From Nanobdellota archaeon (lineage in GTDB: Archaea > Nanobdellota > Nanobdellia > Pacearchaeales > GW2011-AR1): a stretch of 8,154 nucleotides of DNA. Numbering within the stretch: position 1 is the stretch's first letter; each line of letters begins with the position of its first letter. The stretch is taken from the NCBI GenBank assembly GCA_018830685.1, contig JAHJRR010000054.1, forward strand, positions 1-8,154, in the 5' to 3' direction. Positions 2,342 through 8,154 of this stretch are shown here, piece by piece. The notes beneath the pieces were generated by a model. It was not told the origin of the DNA. It made no database searches and worked only from the letters and a program-made list of their open reading frames with translations. Both the position numbers and the translations under genes were made by a program.

Positions 2342-2363
2342 ATTCCCTACTGATCTAAGATGA
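2331..2363 (+). CDS. Possible 10-residue leader ORF (MEVIFPTDLR) upstream of the nucleotidyltransferase
   Basis: An ATG at 2331 opens a 10-codon frame that ends at TGA 2361-2363. That stop overlaps the ATG of the nucleotidyltransferase (2360-2362) as ATGA, the classic overlap for termination-reinitiation. The ATG lies where the mRNA is expected to begin (about 30-35 nt after the TATA box), so it could be read in leaderless fashion. The nucleotidyltransferase ATG lacks a well-spaced GGAGG: the only one, at 2333-2337, is 22 nt away and inside this small ORF. Translational coupling is therefore plausible. A chance ORF this short is also common, and no conservation evidence is available here. Confidence 0.35.
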   Translation: MEVIFPTDLR

Positions 2364-2848
2364 ACTTAATACAATTTTTAGAGAAGAATGATAACACCAG
2401 AAAAATATTTGGGCAGCGTGAGCTAAAAATAATTGAGAAGCAGTTGAACGGAATTAATCTAACTCAATCAGAAAAAAACAGATTATCAAGAGATATCAGG
2501 AAAAAATTTCAATTTATTAAAGATATTTCTAAATTTGAAGATTTTAGTTTAAAGAAGGCAGGCATTATTAAGGATATTATTAAAGAAACTAAAAAAATAA
2601 TTTTAGAGGATGAGTATGTAAAAAAAATTAGGAAAATAATTTTGTTTGGTTCTGTTATTGAAAATAAATTGACAATCAGATCTGATATTGATATCGCTGT
2701 TGAATTTGATAAAATTTCTTTAAGGGAAGCTACTTTATTTAGGAAAAGAGTTTCTGGGCAATTACCTGATAAGGTAGATGTTCAAGTGTTAAATGTTCTA
2801 CCGAAAAAGGTTAAAAAATCAATTTTAAAAAACCATAGAATATTATAG
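2360..2848 (+). CDS. MNT-type minimal nucleotidyltransferase (MntA-like antitoxin) with N-terminal helical domain
   Basis: The 162-residue protein carries the polymerase-beta-type nucleotidyltransferase signature: LFGS at 95-98, the metal-binding pair SDIDIAV (D109, D111) and a third acidic residue in KVDVQVL (D140). In characterised MntA-HepT (type VII) pairs the MNT protein inactivates the HEPN toxin by adding AMP units to a Tyr of the toxin; with a HEPN gene 3 nt downstream the same role is likely here. Residues about 1-75 are an added, very basic, helical region (FGQREL..LTQSEKNRLSRDIRKKF) that I recall from archaeal members of this family. It could be a DNA-binding or HEPN-binding domain, which would suit autoregulation at the upstream palindrome. 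There is no GGAGG at normal spacing; TGATC at 2351-2355 resembles the end of an extended archaeal Shine-Dalgarno. The module is very AT-rich (10 G/C in 60 at 2581-2640), which hints at a mobile origin. Confidence 0.85.
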   Translation: MNLIQFLEKNDNTRKIFGQRELKIIEKQLNGINLTQSEKNRLSRDIRKKFQFIKDISKFEDFSLKKAGIIKDIIKETKKIILEDEYVKKIRKIILFGSVIENKLTIRSDIDIAVEFDKISLREATLFRKRVSGQLPDKVDVQVLNVLPKKVKKSILKNHRIL

Positions 2849-2851
2849 GAA

Positions 2852-3262
2852 ATGAAAGGAAGAATTAGTGATAAAATAAGTGAGATAGAAAAGTTTCTTG
2901 AAGAATTAGAATCTTCTTTACCTACTAATTTTGAAGAATATAAAAGAGATTATAAGATTAGAGCGATTAGTGAGAGATATTTTGAAAAGATAATAGAGGC
3001 AATTATCGACCTCTCATTTATGATAGTTAAAGAAAAAAACCTTAAACAACCAGAACATGAGAAACAAGTTTTTGATATTTTGAAAAACGAAGGAATAATC
3101 TCAGAGATTTTAGCAACCAGGCTTAAAGATTCTAAAGGTATGAGAAATATAATTGCCCATGAATACGGAAAGATTGATGATGAACTGGTTTTTGGATTTA
3201 TAACAAAAGAGATTATAAGAGATGCAAATGAATTTATTGATTTGATTAAGAAATTGTATTAA
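2852..3262 (+). CDS. HEPN domain protein, HepT-like (DUF86) RNase toxin
   Basis: The 136-residue all-helical protein matches the HepT/DUF86 layout. A first helix pair bears YKIRAISERYFEKIIEAI (residues about 34-51), and the catalytic motif RNIIAHEY sits at 98-105 and fits RX4HXY exactly: R98 and H103 as the RNase residues, and Y105 as the residue that partner MNT enzymes modify in characterised pairs. Its length is usual for the family. In known systems HepT is an RNase, acting on tRNA or mRNA, whose activity stops growth, and it dimerises through the HEPN fold. It follows the nucleotidyltransferase by 3 nt (TAG GAA ATG), so the two are certainly co-transcribed. The pair could serve in stress response, plasmid/element stability or antiviral defence; the sequence does not say which. 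All key residues are intact, so the toxin looks active. Confidence 0.85.
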   Translation: MKGRISDKISEIEKFLEELESSLPTNFEEYKRDYKIRAISERYFEKIIEAIIDLSFMIVKEKNLKQPEHEKQVFDILKNEGIISEILATRLKDSKGMRNIIAHEYGKIDDELVFGFITKEIIRDANEFIDLIKKLY

Positions 3263-3344: not shown

Positions 3345-4016
3345 ATGAAAAAACAATTGATACTTATGACTTTAGGTTTGCTTCTGATTGGACTCGTGTC
3401 CGCGATTCCGTCGCCACACGGATTTTACGGGAATGTCTATTATTCGGACGGGAACACTTTATTGGGCGATGGTTATTCGGTGATAGCGAAAATAAACGGA
3501 GGAGAAGTTGGAAGTAGTGAAATTGTGAGCGGTTCTTATGATTTAGTAGTTGAATCGGATTCGGGAGGAAATATTTATTTTTATGTAAACGGAGAAACCG
3601 TCGGGAGTGAGACGTTCAAGACTTTTGAAGTTACTGAAAAAGATTTTACAACAAGCATTGTTATTCCTACAGATTCAGAAGATAGTGGAGATAATAGTAA
3701 CTCCAATAATAACCCTGGAGGGGGGAGCCCTGGGGGTGGAAGTTCTGGGAGTAGCAGTTCCCCAAGTTCTGGTAGCACAATCATATTAGGGGTTGTTGAA
3801 AATAATGAAACAACTTATACGACACTAGGAAATTCTGATGAGGCTCAAGAGGGCTATAACGAGCGTGAAATTTCTGGAGGATGGGGCTTTGGAATTACCG
3901 GAGCCGCAATTGGTTTCTTAAGTTCAAAAAATGGTGTAGGGGTAATATTTATCATCTTAGTAATTCTTGGTGCAGGTCTAGTGGTCATTGATAAGAGAAA
4001 AATGCAGAGAAAATAA
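3345..4016 (+). CDS. Membrane-anchored surface protein with Gly/Ser stalk and ITGAAIG-helix-basic C-terminus
   Basis: The 223-residue protein starts with a clean signal peptide (MKKQL, hydrophobic core, cleavage near VSA|IPS at 20/21). Residues about 24-108 form one beta-rich domain beginning HGFYGNVYYSDG and containing IYFYVNGETV; I know similar domains from archaeal surface proteins, where they resemble carboxypeptidase-regulatory/carbohydrate-binding-like folds. Residues about 109-145 are a low-complexity stalk of Asn, Ser, Gly and Pro with two tandem PGGGS units. A linker with one sequon (NET, about 154) follows. The end holds ITGAAIG at 184-190, a membrane helix at about 197-215, and the basic tail KRKMQRK. 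This three-part tail looks like a sorting or anchoring signal. The protein would be held in the membrane with the beta domain outside. The target of the domain is unknown. The gene ends 2 nt from the stop of a gene on the opposite strand. Confidence 0.8.
   Translation: MKKQLILMTLGLLLIGLVSAIPSPHGFYGNVYYSDGNTLLGDGYSVIAKINGGEVGSSEIVSGSYDLVVESDSGGNIYFYVNGETVGSETFKTFEVTEKDFTTSIVIPTDSEDSGDNSNSNNNPGGGSPGGGSSGSSSSPSSGSTIILGVVENNETTYTTLGNSDEAQEGYNEREISGGWGFGITGAAIGFLSSKNGVGVIFIILVILGAGLVVIDKRKMQRK
3713..3742 (+). repeat. Tandem 15-nt repeat, G-rich, encoding PGGGS twice
   Basis: Two adjacent 15-nt units start at 3713 and 3728 (each opening CCCTGG and rich in G) and encode PGGGS-PGGGS in the stalk of the surface protein. 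They contain runs of six and five G. The repeat probably arose by slippage and could vary in copy number between strains. Its G-runs might also form a two-layer quadruplex, but the protein-coding reason for the repeat is sufficient. Confidence 0.6.
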
Positions 4017-4580: not shown

Positions 4581-4588
4581 TTTATAAA
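4581..4588 (+). promoter_or_regulatory. TATA box of the three-gene surface operon
   Basis: TTTATAAA is a near-perfect archaeal TATA box centred about 25 nt before the ATG at 4610, so the mRNA should start at or beside the start codon and be leaderless. The space 4499-4609 thus holds divergent promoters for this operon and the YdjM-like gene. No other promoter is evident between 4610 and 8154. Confidence 0.65.
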
Positions 4589-4609: not shown

Positions 4610-5392
4610 ATGCAAAAAAGGTGTAGTGAGATTCTTGAAGATAAGTCTGGACAGGTGACTATCTTTGTTATCATTGCGATTGTGATTGTTGGTGCGGTCC
4701 TGTTGTATTTCTTTGTTCTTCCAGGTTCGAGAGTTAATATTTCTGATTTTAATTCTGAGAACCCTCAAGGATTTATGCAAACTTGTTTAAATGAAAGAAT
4801 TATTGAAGTTGTTCAGTTAGTTTCGATACAAGGAGGGAGTGTTGAGCCAGAGCATTATTTTACTTACAATGAGGTTCCCATCGAGTATTTGTGTTATACT
4901 AACGAGAATTTGAAGCCATGTGTCGTTCAGCAGCCATTATTGAAACAACATATTGAATCAGAAGTGGAGAGTGCAATTGGAAATGATGTGCAGAGGTGCT
5001 TTGATTCTTTAAAAGAAAGTTATGAGGGAAAAGGTTATAATGTTGCCCTTGATACAGGGATTACACGAGTGGAGCTTCTTCCAAATAGAATTAATATCGA
5101 TATGAATTATATTCTTACAACGTCTAAGTCCGAGACGACGAGGTTTGATGATTTTAGTGTGGCTGTGGACAATAATCTTTATGAACTTGTTAGCATTGCG
5201 AATTCAATAATCGAGTGGGAAACGACAATTGGTGATGCTGACCCTAGGATTTACGGAAGACTTGATTCGAATATAATTGTAGATAAAAATTTGAGGGACG
5301 ATGGAACGAAGATTTACAAGATAGAGGAATTGAGCAGTGGAGATATCTTCCAGCTTGCTTCTAGGAGTCTTGTGTTCCCCGTTGGATACTAA
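4610..5392 (+). CDS. Single-helix membrane protein with SGQVTIF motif (first gene of surface operon)
   Basis: The 260-residue protein has a short, charged N-terminus (MQKRCSEILEDKSGQ), then one strongly hydrophobic helix VTIFVIIAIVIVGAVLLYFFV at about 16-36, followed by a soluble domain of about 220 residues. The basic/polar start, Gly-Gln just before the helix and a long hydrophobic run resemble an archaeal class III (type IV pilin-like) signal, with possible cleavage at G14|Q15. However, it lacks the Glu at +5 typical of pilins, and simple membrane anchoring fits equally well. I recognise the SGQVTIF..IAIVIV start as recurrent in DPANN genomes, without a known function. The outer domain has cysteines at 59, 95, 104 and 130 that could form two disulfides. 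The start is supported by the TATA box 25 nt upstream. The next gene begins one base after the stop codon, so this is the first member of an operon with two Cys-rich proteins. Confidence 0.75.
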   Translation: MQKRCSEILEDKSGQVTIFVIIAIVIVGAVLLYFFVLPGSRVNISDFNSENPQGFMQTCLNERIIEVVQLVSIQGGSVEPEHYFTYNEVPIEYLCYTNENLKPCVVQQPLLKQHIESEVESAIGNDVQRCFDSLKESYEGKGYNVALDTGITRVELLPNRINIDMNYILTTSKSETTRFDDFSVAVDNNLYELVSIANSIIEWETTIGDADPRIYGRLDSNIIVDKNLRDDGTKIYKIEELSSGDIFQLASRSLVFPVGY

Positions 5393-5393
5393 G

Positions 5394-7130
5394 ATGATAA
5401 ATAGAAAGAAATATTTGGTAGTGATTTTGCTTTTAGTTTTGGTTTCGTTCATTTTAGTAGGAAGCATTTCTGCACAGGAAGGTCAGGAAACATTGTATTG
5501 TGCGGAGAAAACTGTTAGTGGTGCTAGGTGCCAAAATGTTCCGTTGGAAGAAGTTGATACTGGTTTTAGGTCGGATAGGACTTCTTGCGAGAGTACTGCA
5601 TACTGCTCAAAGGGAACGTGCGTTAACACGCGAACGGGCGAGTGTCTGCCGAGTCCAGAAGCAACGTGTAATCCTGCGAAAGGAGGGTATTTTTACAGCC
5701 AACCAAAGGAGGAGGTTCCACAGTGTAGTATAGGTTGTTGCCTTCTTGGAGATGAGACGAAGTTTGTTGAAAGAGTTGCGTGTGATGCTCTTGGAAGCGA
5801 TTATAATGTTAAAGCTACTTTCAGAGCAGATGTTCAGGACGAGCCGTCGTGTCAGGCGTTGGCTTCGCCTCAAGAAGAAGGGGCTTGTATTTTTGAGGTA
5901 GAGATTGGAAGAGATTGTAGCCATGATACAAGAGAGCAGTGTCAGAGTAATGGGGGAGAGTTTCACCCAGGGCTTTTGTGTACCGCACCACAGTTGGGAA
6001 CGCTTTGTTCTATGACAGAAAGAACTAGGTGTGAGGTTGGAAAGAATGATGTTTACTACGTAGACAATTGTGGAAATACTGCCAATGTTTATGATGCGAA
6101 CAAAATAAAGGATATTAATTACTGGAGCTACATAGCTGGAAACCAGGATGTTAAAGTTGACGAGGGCGATGGTAAAGGAAACAAGGGTTCGGACACATAT
6201 GGTTCTTGTGGTGTTGGAGAGGGCAGTACATGCAGGAGTTACGAGAGGGGAGTTGATTCTAATGTTCCAAAGTATGGAGATAGTATTTGTAGGAAGACTG
6301 ATTGTGTTGCGAGTTCTTTGACTGGAAATGTTCCGAGGGCGAACGGGGATGAATGGTGTTCTGCTTCGATAAATACTTTTGAAGATGCTAAGCCGGGACA
6401 GTTGTCGTATGCTATGTGGTGCCAGAACGGAGAGGTAGAATATGAATTGTGTGATTCTTTCAGAAATAAACTTTGTTCAGAAGACATAGGGGGAGGTGCT
6501 AGGTGCGTGGTGAATAAATGGGGGGATTGTATGCTCCAGAATAGCACGACAGATTGTTTGAATGAAGATGAAAGAGATTGTGAGGTTGTGAAGGATGCAG
6601 GCGTTTTGAGAACACAGTATGGTGTTGAAAAGAAAATGTGGGACGACGACGCGGACAAAGAGATAATTGCTGCGTGCGTTCCCAAGTATTCCCCAGGATT
6701 TAAGTTTTGGGACCCTACTGGAACAATTGCAGAGAGTGAAAATAATGAAGACGTTGTGAGTATTTGTAGCTTTGCGAGTGTGACATGTTCTGTTCCTTAT
6801 ACGCAAGAAATTGTTGGTTTGACAGATTTCAGGGCGGGGGCGGATGTGAATTGTGTGAAGCTTTGTCGGTCAACGGAAGGTTGGAGCGAATCCAAGTGTT
6901 ATCAGGAATGTACACCCAGATGTTTAGATAAGACTTTAAAAGATAAGAAAGAAAAAACAAAGATTAACCAAGATTGGGCAGAAGGTTATCAAAACTTGTG
7001 CGTCTCCCTCGGAGATTGCGGGGTTATTGGAGATTACAAGGGTGGAGAGGGATATGGTAGCTGGAAGGACTTATTCAAGGGAGAGAAAATAAATTGGGAC
7101 ACATTGCCTGGAGTAAATGATAAAAGGTAA
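5394..7130 (+). CDS. Large Cys-rich secreted protein with GKNDVYYVDNCGN motif (second gene of surface operon)
   Basis: The 578-residue protein begins with a clear signal peptide (MINRKKYL, a long Leu/Val core, cleavage near SISA|QEG at 27/28). I count about 41 cysteines in the mature part (about 7%), spread evenly, which points to a disulfide-stabilised extracellular protein. Landmarks are CSIGCCLLGD at 111-120, EEGACIFE at 161-168, and GKNDVYYVDNCGNTANVYD at 216-234 followed by INYW. I recognise this middle block as conserved in Woesearchaeota-type genomes, but I know of no assigned function. There is no C-terminal helix, so it may be secreted and held by the neighbouring membrane proteins. 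The frame is open back to 5337, but the ATG at 5394 is chosen because the signal peptide then starts properly and the upstream gene ends at 5392. Stop-to-start spacing of one base on both sides suggests coupled translation. Confidence 0.8.
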   Translation: MINRKKYLVVILLLVLVSFILVGSISAQEGQETLYCAEKTVSGARCQNVPLEEVDTGFRSDRTSCESTAYCSKGTCVNTRTGECLPSPEATCNPAKGGYFYSQPKEEVPQCSIGCCLLGDETKFVERVACDALGSDYNVKATFRADVQDEPSCQALASPQEEGACIFEVEIGRDCSHDTREQCQSNGGEFHPGLLCTAPQLGTLCSMTERTRCEVGKNDVYYVDNCGNTANVYDANKIKDINYWSYIAGNQDVKVDEGDGKGNKGSDTYGSCGVGEGSTCRSYERGVDSNVPKYGDSICRKTDCVASSLTGNVPRANGDEWCSASINTFEDAKPGQLSYAMWCQNGEVEYELCDSFRNKLCSEDIGGGARCVVNKWGDCMLQNSTTDCLNEDERDCEVVKDAGVLRTQYGVEKKMWDDDADKEIIAACVPKYSPGFKFWDPTGTIAESENNEDVVSICSFASVTCSVPYTQEIVGLTDFRAGADVNCVKLCRSTEGWSESKCYQECTPRCLDKTLKDKKEKTKINQDWAEGYQNLCVSLGDCGVIGDYKGGEGYGSWKDLFKGEKINWDTLPGVNDKR

Positions 7131-7131
7131 G

Positions 7132-8154
7132 ATGTTAAAAAATACCAGAGGAAAGTTGGCTGTGGGGCAGATAATTGTCTTGGTAGTTGGGCTGTTTGCG
7201 TTTTCTTACATGTTGAGTTTGGAGGTTGGGGTTGTTCGTGGGCAGGGAGAAGCAAATACTCTTGGGGATTCTTTACCTCAATTACCTATTTCTCCAGATC
7301 AATTAAAAGAAGGGACTCTAACAGATAAGTCATTTCAAACAAAAGATGGAAAAAGCTATATTCTTGAAGGAGGAAAATGGATTTTAGCTGTAAAAGGAGC
7401 AGAAGTAACAAAAGCTCCAAAGACAGGTTTGAAGATTAGTAAAGTGGTTAAGTTTTTTTCTCCAAGCACAAGGGGAGGATTTTGGAATCCACAGGGTATT
7501 GACACAGCGTTAAAATATTCTGGAATAGGTTCTGCAATTACTGGTGCTATCAAAGCAACACTAGTTTTTAGGAGCACTGGAGATAAAACAAGAGCGGCTC
7601 AAGCAGGGGCAAGAGTTGGGGGAAGTGCTTTTGCTGGTTACTGGGCTGGAATTGGTGTCTCTAAAGGACTCGTTGCATTAGGCTGGATGGGAACTGGGCC
7701 TGCGGGATGGTTTGCCATGGGAGGTACCGCACTAGCATTTTGGGCTTCAAAATATTTGAAAGATGACACAGATAGGACAATCATATTTGAATGTAAGCCG
7801 TGGCAGGCGCAGGCGAAGGGGGAGAATTGTGACTTGTGTAATGACGGAGATTTCCCTTGCACAGAGTATCAGTGTAGAAGTCTTGGTGCAGGATGTGGCT
7901 TGATAAATAAAGATACTGATGAGGAGAGATGTATTTGGAAGAATGAAAAAGATTTGACAGCTCCGAGGATAAGTGCGGACGAGAGTGGATTACCTGATGG
8001 CTACAGATACGATGAGCTTTCTGACGGAAGCGGTGTTGAGATAAAATATGAAAATGAGGAATGCCTTCCTGCATTCAAACCATTTGAACTCCAATTAAAT
8101 TTGGATAAGGAAGGTTATTGTAAGATGAGTTTTGATAGAACAGATAGTTTTGCA
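7132..8154 (+). CDS. CKPWQAQ-type Cys-rich membrane protein, N-terminal 341 residues (third gene of surface operon, 3' end outside window)
   Basis: The frame runs open from the ATG at 7132 to the last base, 341 codons, so the protein continues past the window. It opens with RGKLAVGQ and a hydrophobic helix (about 12-29), an N-terminus I know from DPANN surface proteins. A polar region with SYILEGGKWILAV follows, then a Gly/Ala-rich stretch (about 121-200) with one to three possible membrane helices. Next comes a compact Cys domain: CKPWQAQ at 221, C233, C236, PCTEYQCRSLGAGC (243, 248, 255) and ERCIW (267). I recognise this CKPWQAP/EYxCxSLGxxC block as strongly conserved in Woesearchaeota/Pacearchaeota proteins of unknown function. 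Cysteines 311 and 330 follow. CN..C spacing recalls metal-binding knuckles, but an exported location favours disulfides. An in-frame ATG at 7117 with GGAG 3 nt ahead is a possible alternative start, overlapping the previous gene by 14 nt. Confidence 0.8.
   Translation, partial: MLKNTRGKLAVGQIIVLVVGLFAFSYMLSLEVGVVRGQGEANTLGDSLPQLPISPDQLKEGTLTDKSFQTKDGKSYILEGGKWILAVKGAEVTKAPKTGLKISKVVKFFSPSTRGGFWNPQGIDTALKYSGIGSAITGAIKATLVFRSTGDKTRAAQAGARVGGSAFAGYWAGIGVSKGLVALGWMGTGPAGWFAMGGTALAFWASKYLKDDTDRTIIFECKPWQAQAKGENCDLCNDGDFPCTEYQCRSLGAGCGLINKDTDEERCIWKNEKDLTAPRISADESGLPDGYRYDELSDGSGVEIKYENEECLPAFKPFELQLNLDKEGYCKMSFDRTDSFA

Follow-up and report, generated by a model that had tools for sequence, protein, structure and literature searches.

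A conserved seven-gene set in Pacearchaeal genomes may encode a cell-surface complex that joins prepilin-like anchors to a disulfide-rich head

Three closely packed genes, A, B and C, in the window (the whole 8,154-nucleotide stretch analyzed here, which is one entire contig) stand at the start of a longer set of seven, A-G, whose order is kept in many genomes. We lean slightly towards the view that A-G build a membrane-anchored, motor-independent surface complex, in which prepilin-like anchors are combined with a disulfide-rich head in the style of a minor-pilin/PilY1 tip.

All three genes are encoded on the + strand. A TATA-like element, TTTATAAA (4581..4588, + strand), lies 22-29 bases 5' of the ATG of gene A and is the putative promoter element. 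Gene A (4610..5392, +) encodes 260 residues with a prepilin-like KSGQ signal anchor and an alpha/beta ectodomain; the AlphaFold2 model (mean pLDDT 89.5) places the helix at residues 14-36 and the ectodomain at 52-252, the latter with four conserved cysteines (59, 95, 104 and 130). Gene B (5394..7130, +) encodes a predicted disulfide-rich head behind an N-terminal hydrophobic helix (residues 5-26 in an AlphaFold2 model with mean pLDDT 88.9 and pTM 0.61), which is likely a signal peptide. Gene C (7132..8154, +) runs open off the 3' end of the contig, leaving the first 341 of its 714 residues in the window: a signal anchor, a Gly/Ala-rich hydrophobic region (7501..7765, +) and a Cys-rich domain that begins with the motif CKPWQAQ (7792..7812, +). 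The start of C is uncertain, as an alternative in-frame ATG at 7117 would overlap B. The last 141 bases (8014..8154) overlap exactly with another contig of the same genome, C47, which holds the remainder of C, then D and E, with F and G sitting on yet another contig. A sequence-only reading of this DNA had described the packing of A, B and C correctly, as these are real open frames with 1-base gaps at 5393 (A/B) and 7131 (B/C), and its count of 578 residues and 41 cysteines for B also holds. However, the three-gene operon that it proposed was too short, given that the contig stops inside C, that C47 adds D and E, and that relatives show A-B-C-D-E-F-G. The same reading took B to be anchorless, at odds with the predicted N-terminal helix, which we read as a Sec signal peptide, and A to be bitopic, which is not supported in those terms, A carrying a prepilin-like signal.

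The profile search matched B in 149 of the 180 genomes of the window's order, the named relatives being Pacearchaeota/Nanoarchaeota MAGs, while the A profile matched 2,015 of 7,994 scored database candidates. Gene order was analyzed in 80 Pacearchaeal loci, taken from 80 of the 149 B-matching genomes (mostly the better matches, the window's genome left out), with open frames picked longest-first, a procedure under which short inserted frames may be spurious. In these loci, A was found upstream of B on the same strand within 1.5 kb for 75 of 76 B genes (within 60 bases for 49) and, by the same 1.5-kb measure, upstream of 37 of 38 BC fusions; C followed B within 6 kb in 59 of 69 loci, being undetected in the other 10, and 39 of 54 loci carried D-E-F-G, arranged in this way, no more than 13 kb downstream of B, with none of D-G detected in 10 of the 54. 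This constant adjacency supports the earlier reading, as do the occurrence of B and C as one polypeptide in relatives and the lack of known families: none of A, B and C is accepted by a Pfam or NCBIfam model, and the PDB sequence search gave nothing convincing for A or B.

Paralogous copies, and loci from other orders, have B and C as a single protein of ~1,000-1,400 residues, gene B being the N-terminal half of this BC protein, and tandem A-BC units as well as split and fused variants occur. Among 20 regions fetched mostly from other orders, eight, all from other orders, have the fused-BC version of the locus (six of them with all or part of D-G), one from the same order as the window (L255) has A-BC units, five have a second module, three combine an A-like gene and a large protein low in cysteine, and three have the A part fused into a longer protein. 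All 144 genomes carrying E also have A, where, as in all our genome tallies, A-family counts include distant members. An hhalign comparison shows homology between D and E across ~88 columns at the N terminus (probability 96%, E 6.5e-9).

The cysteine counts of B and C are usually odd (41 and 21 in the window), and those of A and D-G are mostly even. Odd counts in both B and C, together with even counts in the other subunits, predict a disulfide bond between B and C. Both members were odd in 39 of 60 B-C pairs and the sum was even in 43; the 21 pairs in which the two were not both odd, as well as the relatedness of the sequences, count against this link. Within BC fusions, both parts were odd in 30 of 48, and 43 of the 48 had a hydrophobicity maximum above 1.7 between the two parts, the cut position for parity being arbitrary in the five without a clear hydrophobic stretch. 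No close fold match was found for B, searched as one large model, nor any PilY1 or DUF2341 Pfam match at E up to 1.

The class III signal of type IV pilins is a basic leader ending in Gly or Ala directly before the hydrophobic segment, and Glu at mature position 5 is a rule for bacterial type IV pilins. A relaxed form of the signal, [KR]x0-3[GAS]Q before the N-terminal hydrophobic segment, was present in A (124/124), D (41/52), F (47/48) and G (49/49); elsewhere, the relaxed K-x-[GA]-Q signal was rare (E, which mostly lacks the Gln, 3/51, C 1/65, B 0/73, other such ORFs 3/198). With the strict class III motif, the counts were A 96/124, D 29/52, E 16/51, F 37/48 and G 2/49, vs. C 14/65, B 6/73 and 13/198 for other ORFs. 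The order has a detected prepilin peptidase (PF01478) in 164 of its 180 genomes and the class in 190 of 194, with three matches in the window's genome. Several observations count against pilin likeness: 1) the window's A has Ser at -2 of the strict motif; 2) Glu at mature position 5, counted from the residue after the conserved Gly/Ala, is not conserved in the alignments of A or D-G; 3) in the model of A, the helix is short (14-36) and followed by a linker of low confidence, where a pilin would have one long continuous helix; 4) profile comparison of D-G with one pilin family from pilus operons gave nothing significant; and 5) none of A-G has an accepted Pfam match to a pilin or PilY1 family. 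The pilin nature of D-G is an inference.

The proposed complex seems not to need a type IV pilus motor. In 41 genomes with neither TadC over the cut-off (sub-cut-off TadC being scored as absent) nor a strong ATPase match (E 1e-39 or better), E was found in 35, the A family in 40 and prepilin peptidase in 40; genomes without a match were taken as the complement of those listed, and motor absence is relative to profile detection and the thresholds given. Of 20 motor-less loci fetched around E, in which E is present by construction, 19 carried D-E-F-G and one E-F-G. No pilus ATPase or TadC was found in these loci or in the 80 Pacearchaeal ones. The motor-less loci encode a large partner of 1,311-2,911 residues in 19 of 20 cases, with 75-80 cysteines in 15, but neither the B nor the C profile matched it, and it is directly preceded by an A-like gene in only five of 20; only D-G are therefore firmly shown to persist in motor-less genomes.

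A competing reading, which we consider plausible though somewhat doubtful, is that the operon encodes an envelope structure, e.g., an S-layer anchor or a stalk that every cell needs, with no special role in partner contact. The near-universal occurrence in the order (149/180) fits with this idea, as does the S-layer-like gene (PF05124 in the member tested) that lies no more than 6 kb past G in 30 of 32 loci, and A, B and C diverge less than this gene (median identity 46, 43 and 36% vs. 31%). However, 23 of the 194 class genomes lack A, with TadC above its cut-off in 22 of those 23, and the tandem, split and fused A-BC units look more like adhesin diversification. In Makarova 2019 (PMC6393860), cls.004306 / NEQ255 is described as a DPANN-specific secreted protein adjoining S-layer-like genes; by description, A-G are likewise DPANN-specific, secreted, functionally unassigned and next to S-layer-like proteins, and cls.004306 / NEQ255 may be one of A-G.

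It is unlikely, in our judgment, that the locus is the minor-pilin/tip set of an ordinary type IV pilus, with D-G as priming minor pilins and A plus BC as the tip adhesin, extended by an ATPase/TadC operon encoded elsewhere. The window's genome does have such a pilus operon on contig C42, with an ATPase, two TadC-like proteins and pilin-like genes; the pilus operon of genome G007 has an A-like gene and a 2,840-residue Cys-rich secreted protein as neighbors; and one pilin of a pilus operon (L068) was a weak match to the E profile (E 2.4e-4). Bacterial type IVa minor pilins with PilC/PilY1 are described as a tip complex in PMC10191384, and four small subunits with a large non-pilin tip protein would fit minor pilins capped in this way, both loci co-encoding several small prepilin-like proteins with one large secreted non-pilin protein. 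Unlike that system, A-G lack accepted pilin/PilY1 matches, D-G persist without a detected ATPase/TadC and the model of A lacks the pilin helix. According to Makarova 2016 (PMC4858521), archaeal type IV pilus loci carry at least five minor pilins along with PilY-like proteins of the DUF2341 family, and nanoarchaeal ATPases without identifiable cognate pilins were noted; A-G resemble these loci in their class III-like signals, several minor-pilin-like genes and large predicted tip proteins, but differ in that B lacks a DUF2341 match and that the 80 Pacearchaeal loci have no linked ATPase/TadC. Similarly, the DPANN pilin islands (Makarova 2019, PMC6393860, Figure 2A) include dark-matter genes with signal peptides predicted as diverged pilins, but are said to contain previously described pilus components, incl. 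the ATPase and TadC, neither of which is in the A-G locus. Together with the occurrence of E and the A family in motor-less genomes, the lack of a detected ATPase or TadC in the 80 Pacearchaeal and the 20 motor-less loci argues against this reading. PCNA is encoded no more than 4 kb upstream in 27 of 34 loci, but the idea that A-G are unrelated surface proteins, with a housekeeping cluster around PCNA as the only thing that holds them together, is highly improbable in light of the B-C fusion, the fixed D-E-F-G order and the shared signals, and of an order kept where PCNA is not seen nearby, as in the window. The accessible literature on DPANN/archaeal pili and surface proteins, mostly open-access with few preprints, yielded no description of the A-G operon.

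For the motor-independent surface complex that we favor, we surmise that the leaders of A and D-G would be trimmed by prepilin peptidase and that D-G would form a membrane-anchored stalk. B and C, as probable halves of an ancestral protein joined by one disulfide, would be carried outward as the head, while A, almost always encoded just ahead of the head gene, may load or tether it. By analogy with type IV pili, the complex might act as their minor-pilin/PilY1 tip does, yet without the motor. Partner-cell contact and S-layer anchoring are candidate roles; since the genes occur almost throughout the order, adjoin the S-layer gene and are less diverged than it, an envelope role is no less a candidate than host contact. 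More speculatively, and with considerable doubt, we postulate that Nanoarchaeia own an ancient prepilin-type organelle, with D-E-F-G anchors and a giant disulfide-welded head but no extension motor, that was ancestral in the class, was kept after pili were lost and serves as the main partner-gripping tool.

The way in which episymbiotic DPANN archaea organize their surface and hold their partners awaits explanation, and they have many surface genes without a name. A widespread, fixed-order seven-gene set with a predicted B-C disulfide and predicted processing by prepilin peptidase offers concrete targets, and could account for the prepilin peptidase in genomes without a detected pilus motor.

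Genes A (4610-5392), B (5394-7130; 578 residues, 41 Cys) and C (from 7132) follow a TATA-like element read from the sequence at 4581-4588, upstream of A, and are separated by gaps of one base, at the positions given by the sequence-only reading, which saw in them a three-gene operon. This extent proved too small: C runs off the end of contig C43, which is the whole window, and 141 identical bases, in reverse complement, open contig C47 of the same genome (694 kb, 119 contigs, 90.9% complete), which completes C in frame (714 residues in all) and then carries D and E; relatives carry D-E-F-G too. F and G lie on contig C68, a 25-residue piece of F is also found at the other end of C47, and E and F are separated by a gene for a low-molecular-weight phosphatase (PF01451). 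Given that C47 and C68 carry slightly different phosphatase copies and that a search for an exact overlap of these contigs found none, C68 may derive from a near strain within the bin. Searches of A, B and C against Pfam and NCBIfam gave zero accepted matches, and among the matches listed for A, B and E the proteins that bear a name are hypothetical proteins, most of the matches having none. Named relatives are MAGs of Pacearchaeota and Nanoarchaeota, with bacterial labels on a few. Four A-carrying contigs (L166, L172, L211, L219) bear the MAG labels Patescibacteria, bacterium and Dojkabacteria; they are probably archaeal, with wrong labels.

B was present in 149 of 180 genomes of the order, and neighbourhoods were fetched from 80 of these, with genes labelled by profiles. 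Among the 79 B genes in these loci, 76 had more than 1 kb of upstream sequence, and 75 of the 76 had A upstream on the same strand within 1.5 kb (49 of those within 60 bases), while C lay within 6 kb downstream of B in 59/69, such that the proposal that these families are neighbours clearly held. The exact order D-E-F-G followed within 13 kb downstream of B in 39/54, and none of D-G in 10/54. Many loci harbor a second tandem unit of A plus a fused BC gene (53 BC genes across the 80 loci), with A upstream of the fusion, again on the same strand and within 1.5 kb, in 37/38; in other orders, A-BC units followed by D-E-F-G are the usual form (L246-L251, L258, L259), with D-E-F-G in four of these eight loci, E-F-G in two and none within the stretch in two. 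Because B and C occur as a single protein, in the tandem units and in other orders, they represent two halves of one protein.

Cysteine counts in length-filtered sets were mostly even for A (114/124), D (46/52), E (47/51), F (44/48), G (45/49) and fused BC (37/51), and mostly odd for B (60/76) and C (53/67). For 60 complete B-C pairs from one locus, both counts were odd in 39 and the sum was even in 43 and odd in 17; when 48 complete BC fusions were divided at the stretch of highest hydrophobicity, both parts were odd in 30. Binomial values computed for these counts take no account of relatedness among the sequences and do not serve as probabilities here. The window's pair has 41 and 21 Cys. 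A single disulfide between B and C would explain this pattern.

PCNA (PF00705) lies within 4 kb upstream in 27/34 Pacearchaeal loci and an S-layer-like gene (PF05124) after G in 30/32, each of these names, like that of the HTH gene below, having been confirmed on one member. The window departs from the PCNA link, as the gene before A is YdjM-like (PF04307, Pfam match). A small HTH gene (HVO_A0114-type, PF25212) on the opposite strand within 3 kb after G in 28/32 loci (e.g. L033 2858-3208) may regulate the operon or the S-layer gene. Further upstream in the window are a C-terminal piece of a Cys-rich, secreted-looking protein cut by the contig start (3-647), two predicted surface proteins (784-2232 and 3345-4016), one with a PKD domain and the other with a Gly/Ser-rich stalk and C-terminal hydrophobic segment, and a Polbeta-type nucleotidyltransferase (PF18765) with a HepT-like partner (PF01934) at 2360-3262, likely a toxin-antitoxin or AMPylation pair. 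L048 likewise has small frames resembling such pairs in the spaces between A, B and C.

The N-termini of A, D, F and G can be read as prepilin-like leaders. K-x-[GA]-Q followed by a hydrophobic segment was found in A 124/124, D 41/52, F 47/48 and G 49/49, vs. E 3/51, C 1/65, B 0/73 and 3/198 other N-terminally hydrophobic ORFs of these loci. The strict class III motif was less discriminating (A 96/124, D 29/52, E 16/51, F 37/48, G 2/49, C 14/65, B 6/73, other 13/198). Pilin-like genes of pilus operons share the leader form (RGQVWVET in contig C42 and relatives, KKGQFYLIA in relatives). D and E share their N-terminal region (hhalign 96%); profile comparison of D-G with pilus-operon pilins found no tie, bar one weak E-profile match (E 2.4e-4). 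We surmise that the leaders are cleaved by the prepilin peptidase (PF01478).

The module seems separable from the type IV pilus motor (ATPase and TadC). In the order sample, the ATPase family, which includes members other than pilus ATPases, was found in 178/180 genomes, TadC in 172 and the peptidase in 164. In a wider, class-level sample of 194 genomes, the A family was found in 171, E in 144 (all also with A), TadC in 158 (151 over cut-off), the peptidase in 190 and the ATPase in 190 at E 1e-15 or better, 152 of these at 1e-39 or better. When TadC over cut-off and a strong ATPase match are both absent, as in 41 genomes, E is present in 35, an A-family protein in 40 and the peptidase in 40; conversely, of the 23 genomes in which A is missing, 22 carry TadC over cut-off. 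Of 20 loci fetched around E from these motor-less genomes, 19 have complete D-E-F-G and one E-F-G, and neither they nor the 80 Pacearchaeal loci encode a pilus ATPase or TadC. Most simply, the module would use the prepilin peptidase and not the pilus motor. Upstream in 19/20 motor-less loci is a protein of 1,311-2,911 aa (75-80 Cys in 15), immediately preceded by an A-like gene in 5; neither the B nor the C profile matched it, and its place and Cys content suggest kinship to BC. In L261-L280, whose genomes have no detected pilus motor, D-E-F-G is often trailed by a run of small proteins, each with one N-terminal hydrophobic segment; 26/144 such other ORFs have K-x-G-Q starts. In five other regions (L241-L244, L260), a second, related module pairs an A-like protein of 600-670 aa with an immediately following secreted protein of ~2,000-2,840 aa with 26-78 Cys, and in G007 this pair adjoins a pilus operon; the pairing of an A-like gene with a large secreted neighbour therefore recurs.

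These data support the idea of a surface complex, for which host contact would be one possible role. Median identity between genome pairs of the order, which differ from gene to gene, was A 46%, B 43%, C 36%, D 41%, E 44%, F 47% and G 39%, compared to S-layer 31%, primase small subunit 57% and PCNA 65%. The putative head formed by B and C is not unusually variable among surface proteins, which weakens a pure host-adhesin reading; a structural role suits these rates at least as well.

In the published passages on DPANN and archaeal pili and surface proteins that we consulted, the A-G operon is not described. Passages of Makarova 2019 (PMC6393860) report a DPANN secreted family adjoining S-layer-like genes, which may overlap one of A-G. 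Pilus genes are discussed in parts of a Nanoarchaeota single-cell study (PMC6142677) and a Nanohaloarchaeota study (PMC9563170), the latter of which notes a lack of annotated pilins, and sections of Makarova 2016 (PMC4858521) describe PilY-like tips in pilus loci of archaea as well as nanoarchaeal ATPases without identified pilins. In the window's genome, contig C42 (L063) carries a separate type IV pilus operon with an ATPase, two TadC-like proteins and pilin-like genes whose products begin with VSPVIA-type and RGQVWVET sequences; these pilin-like genes are candidate cognate pilins for this group's ATPases.
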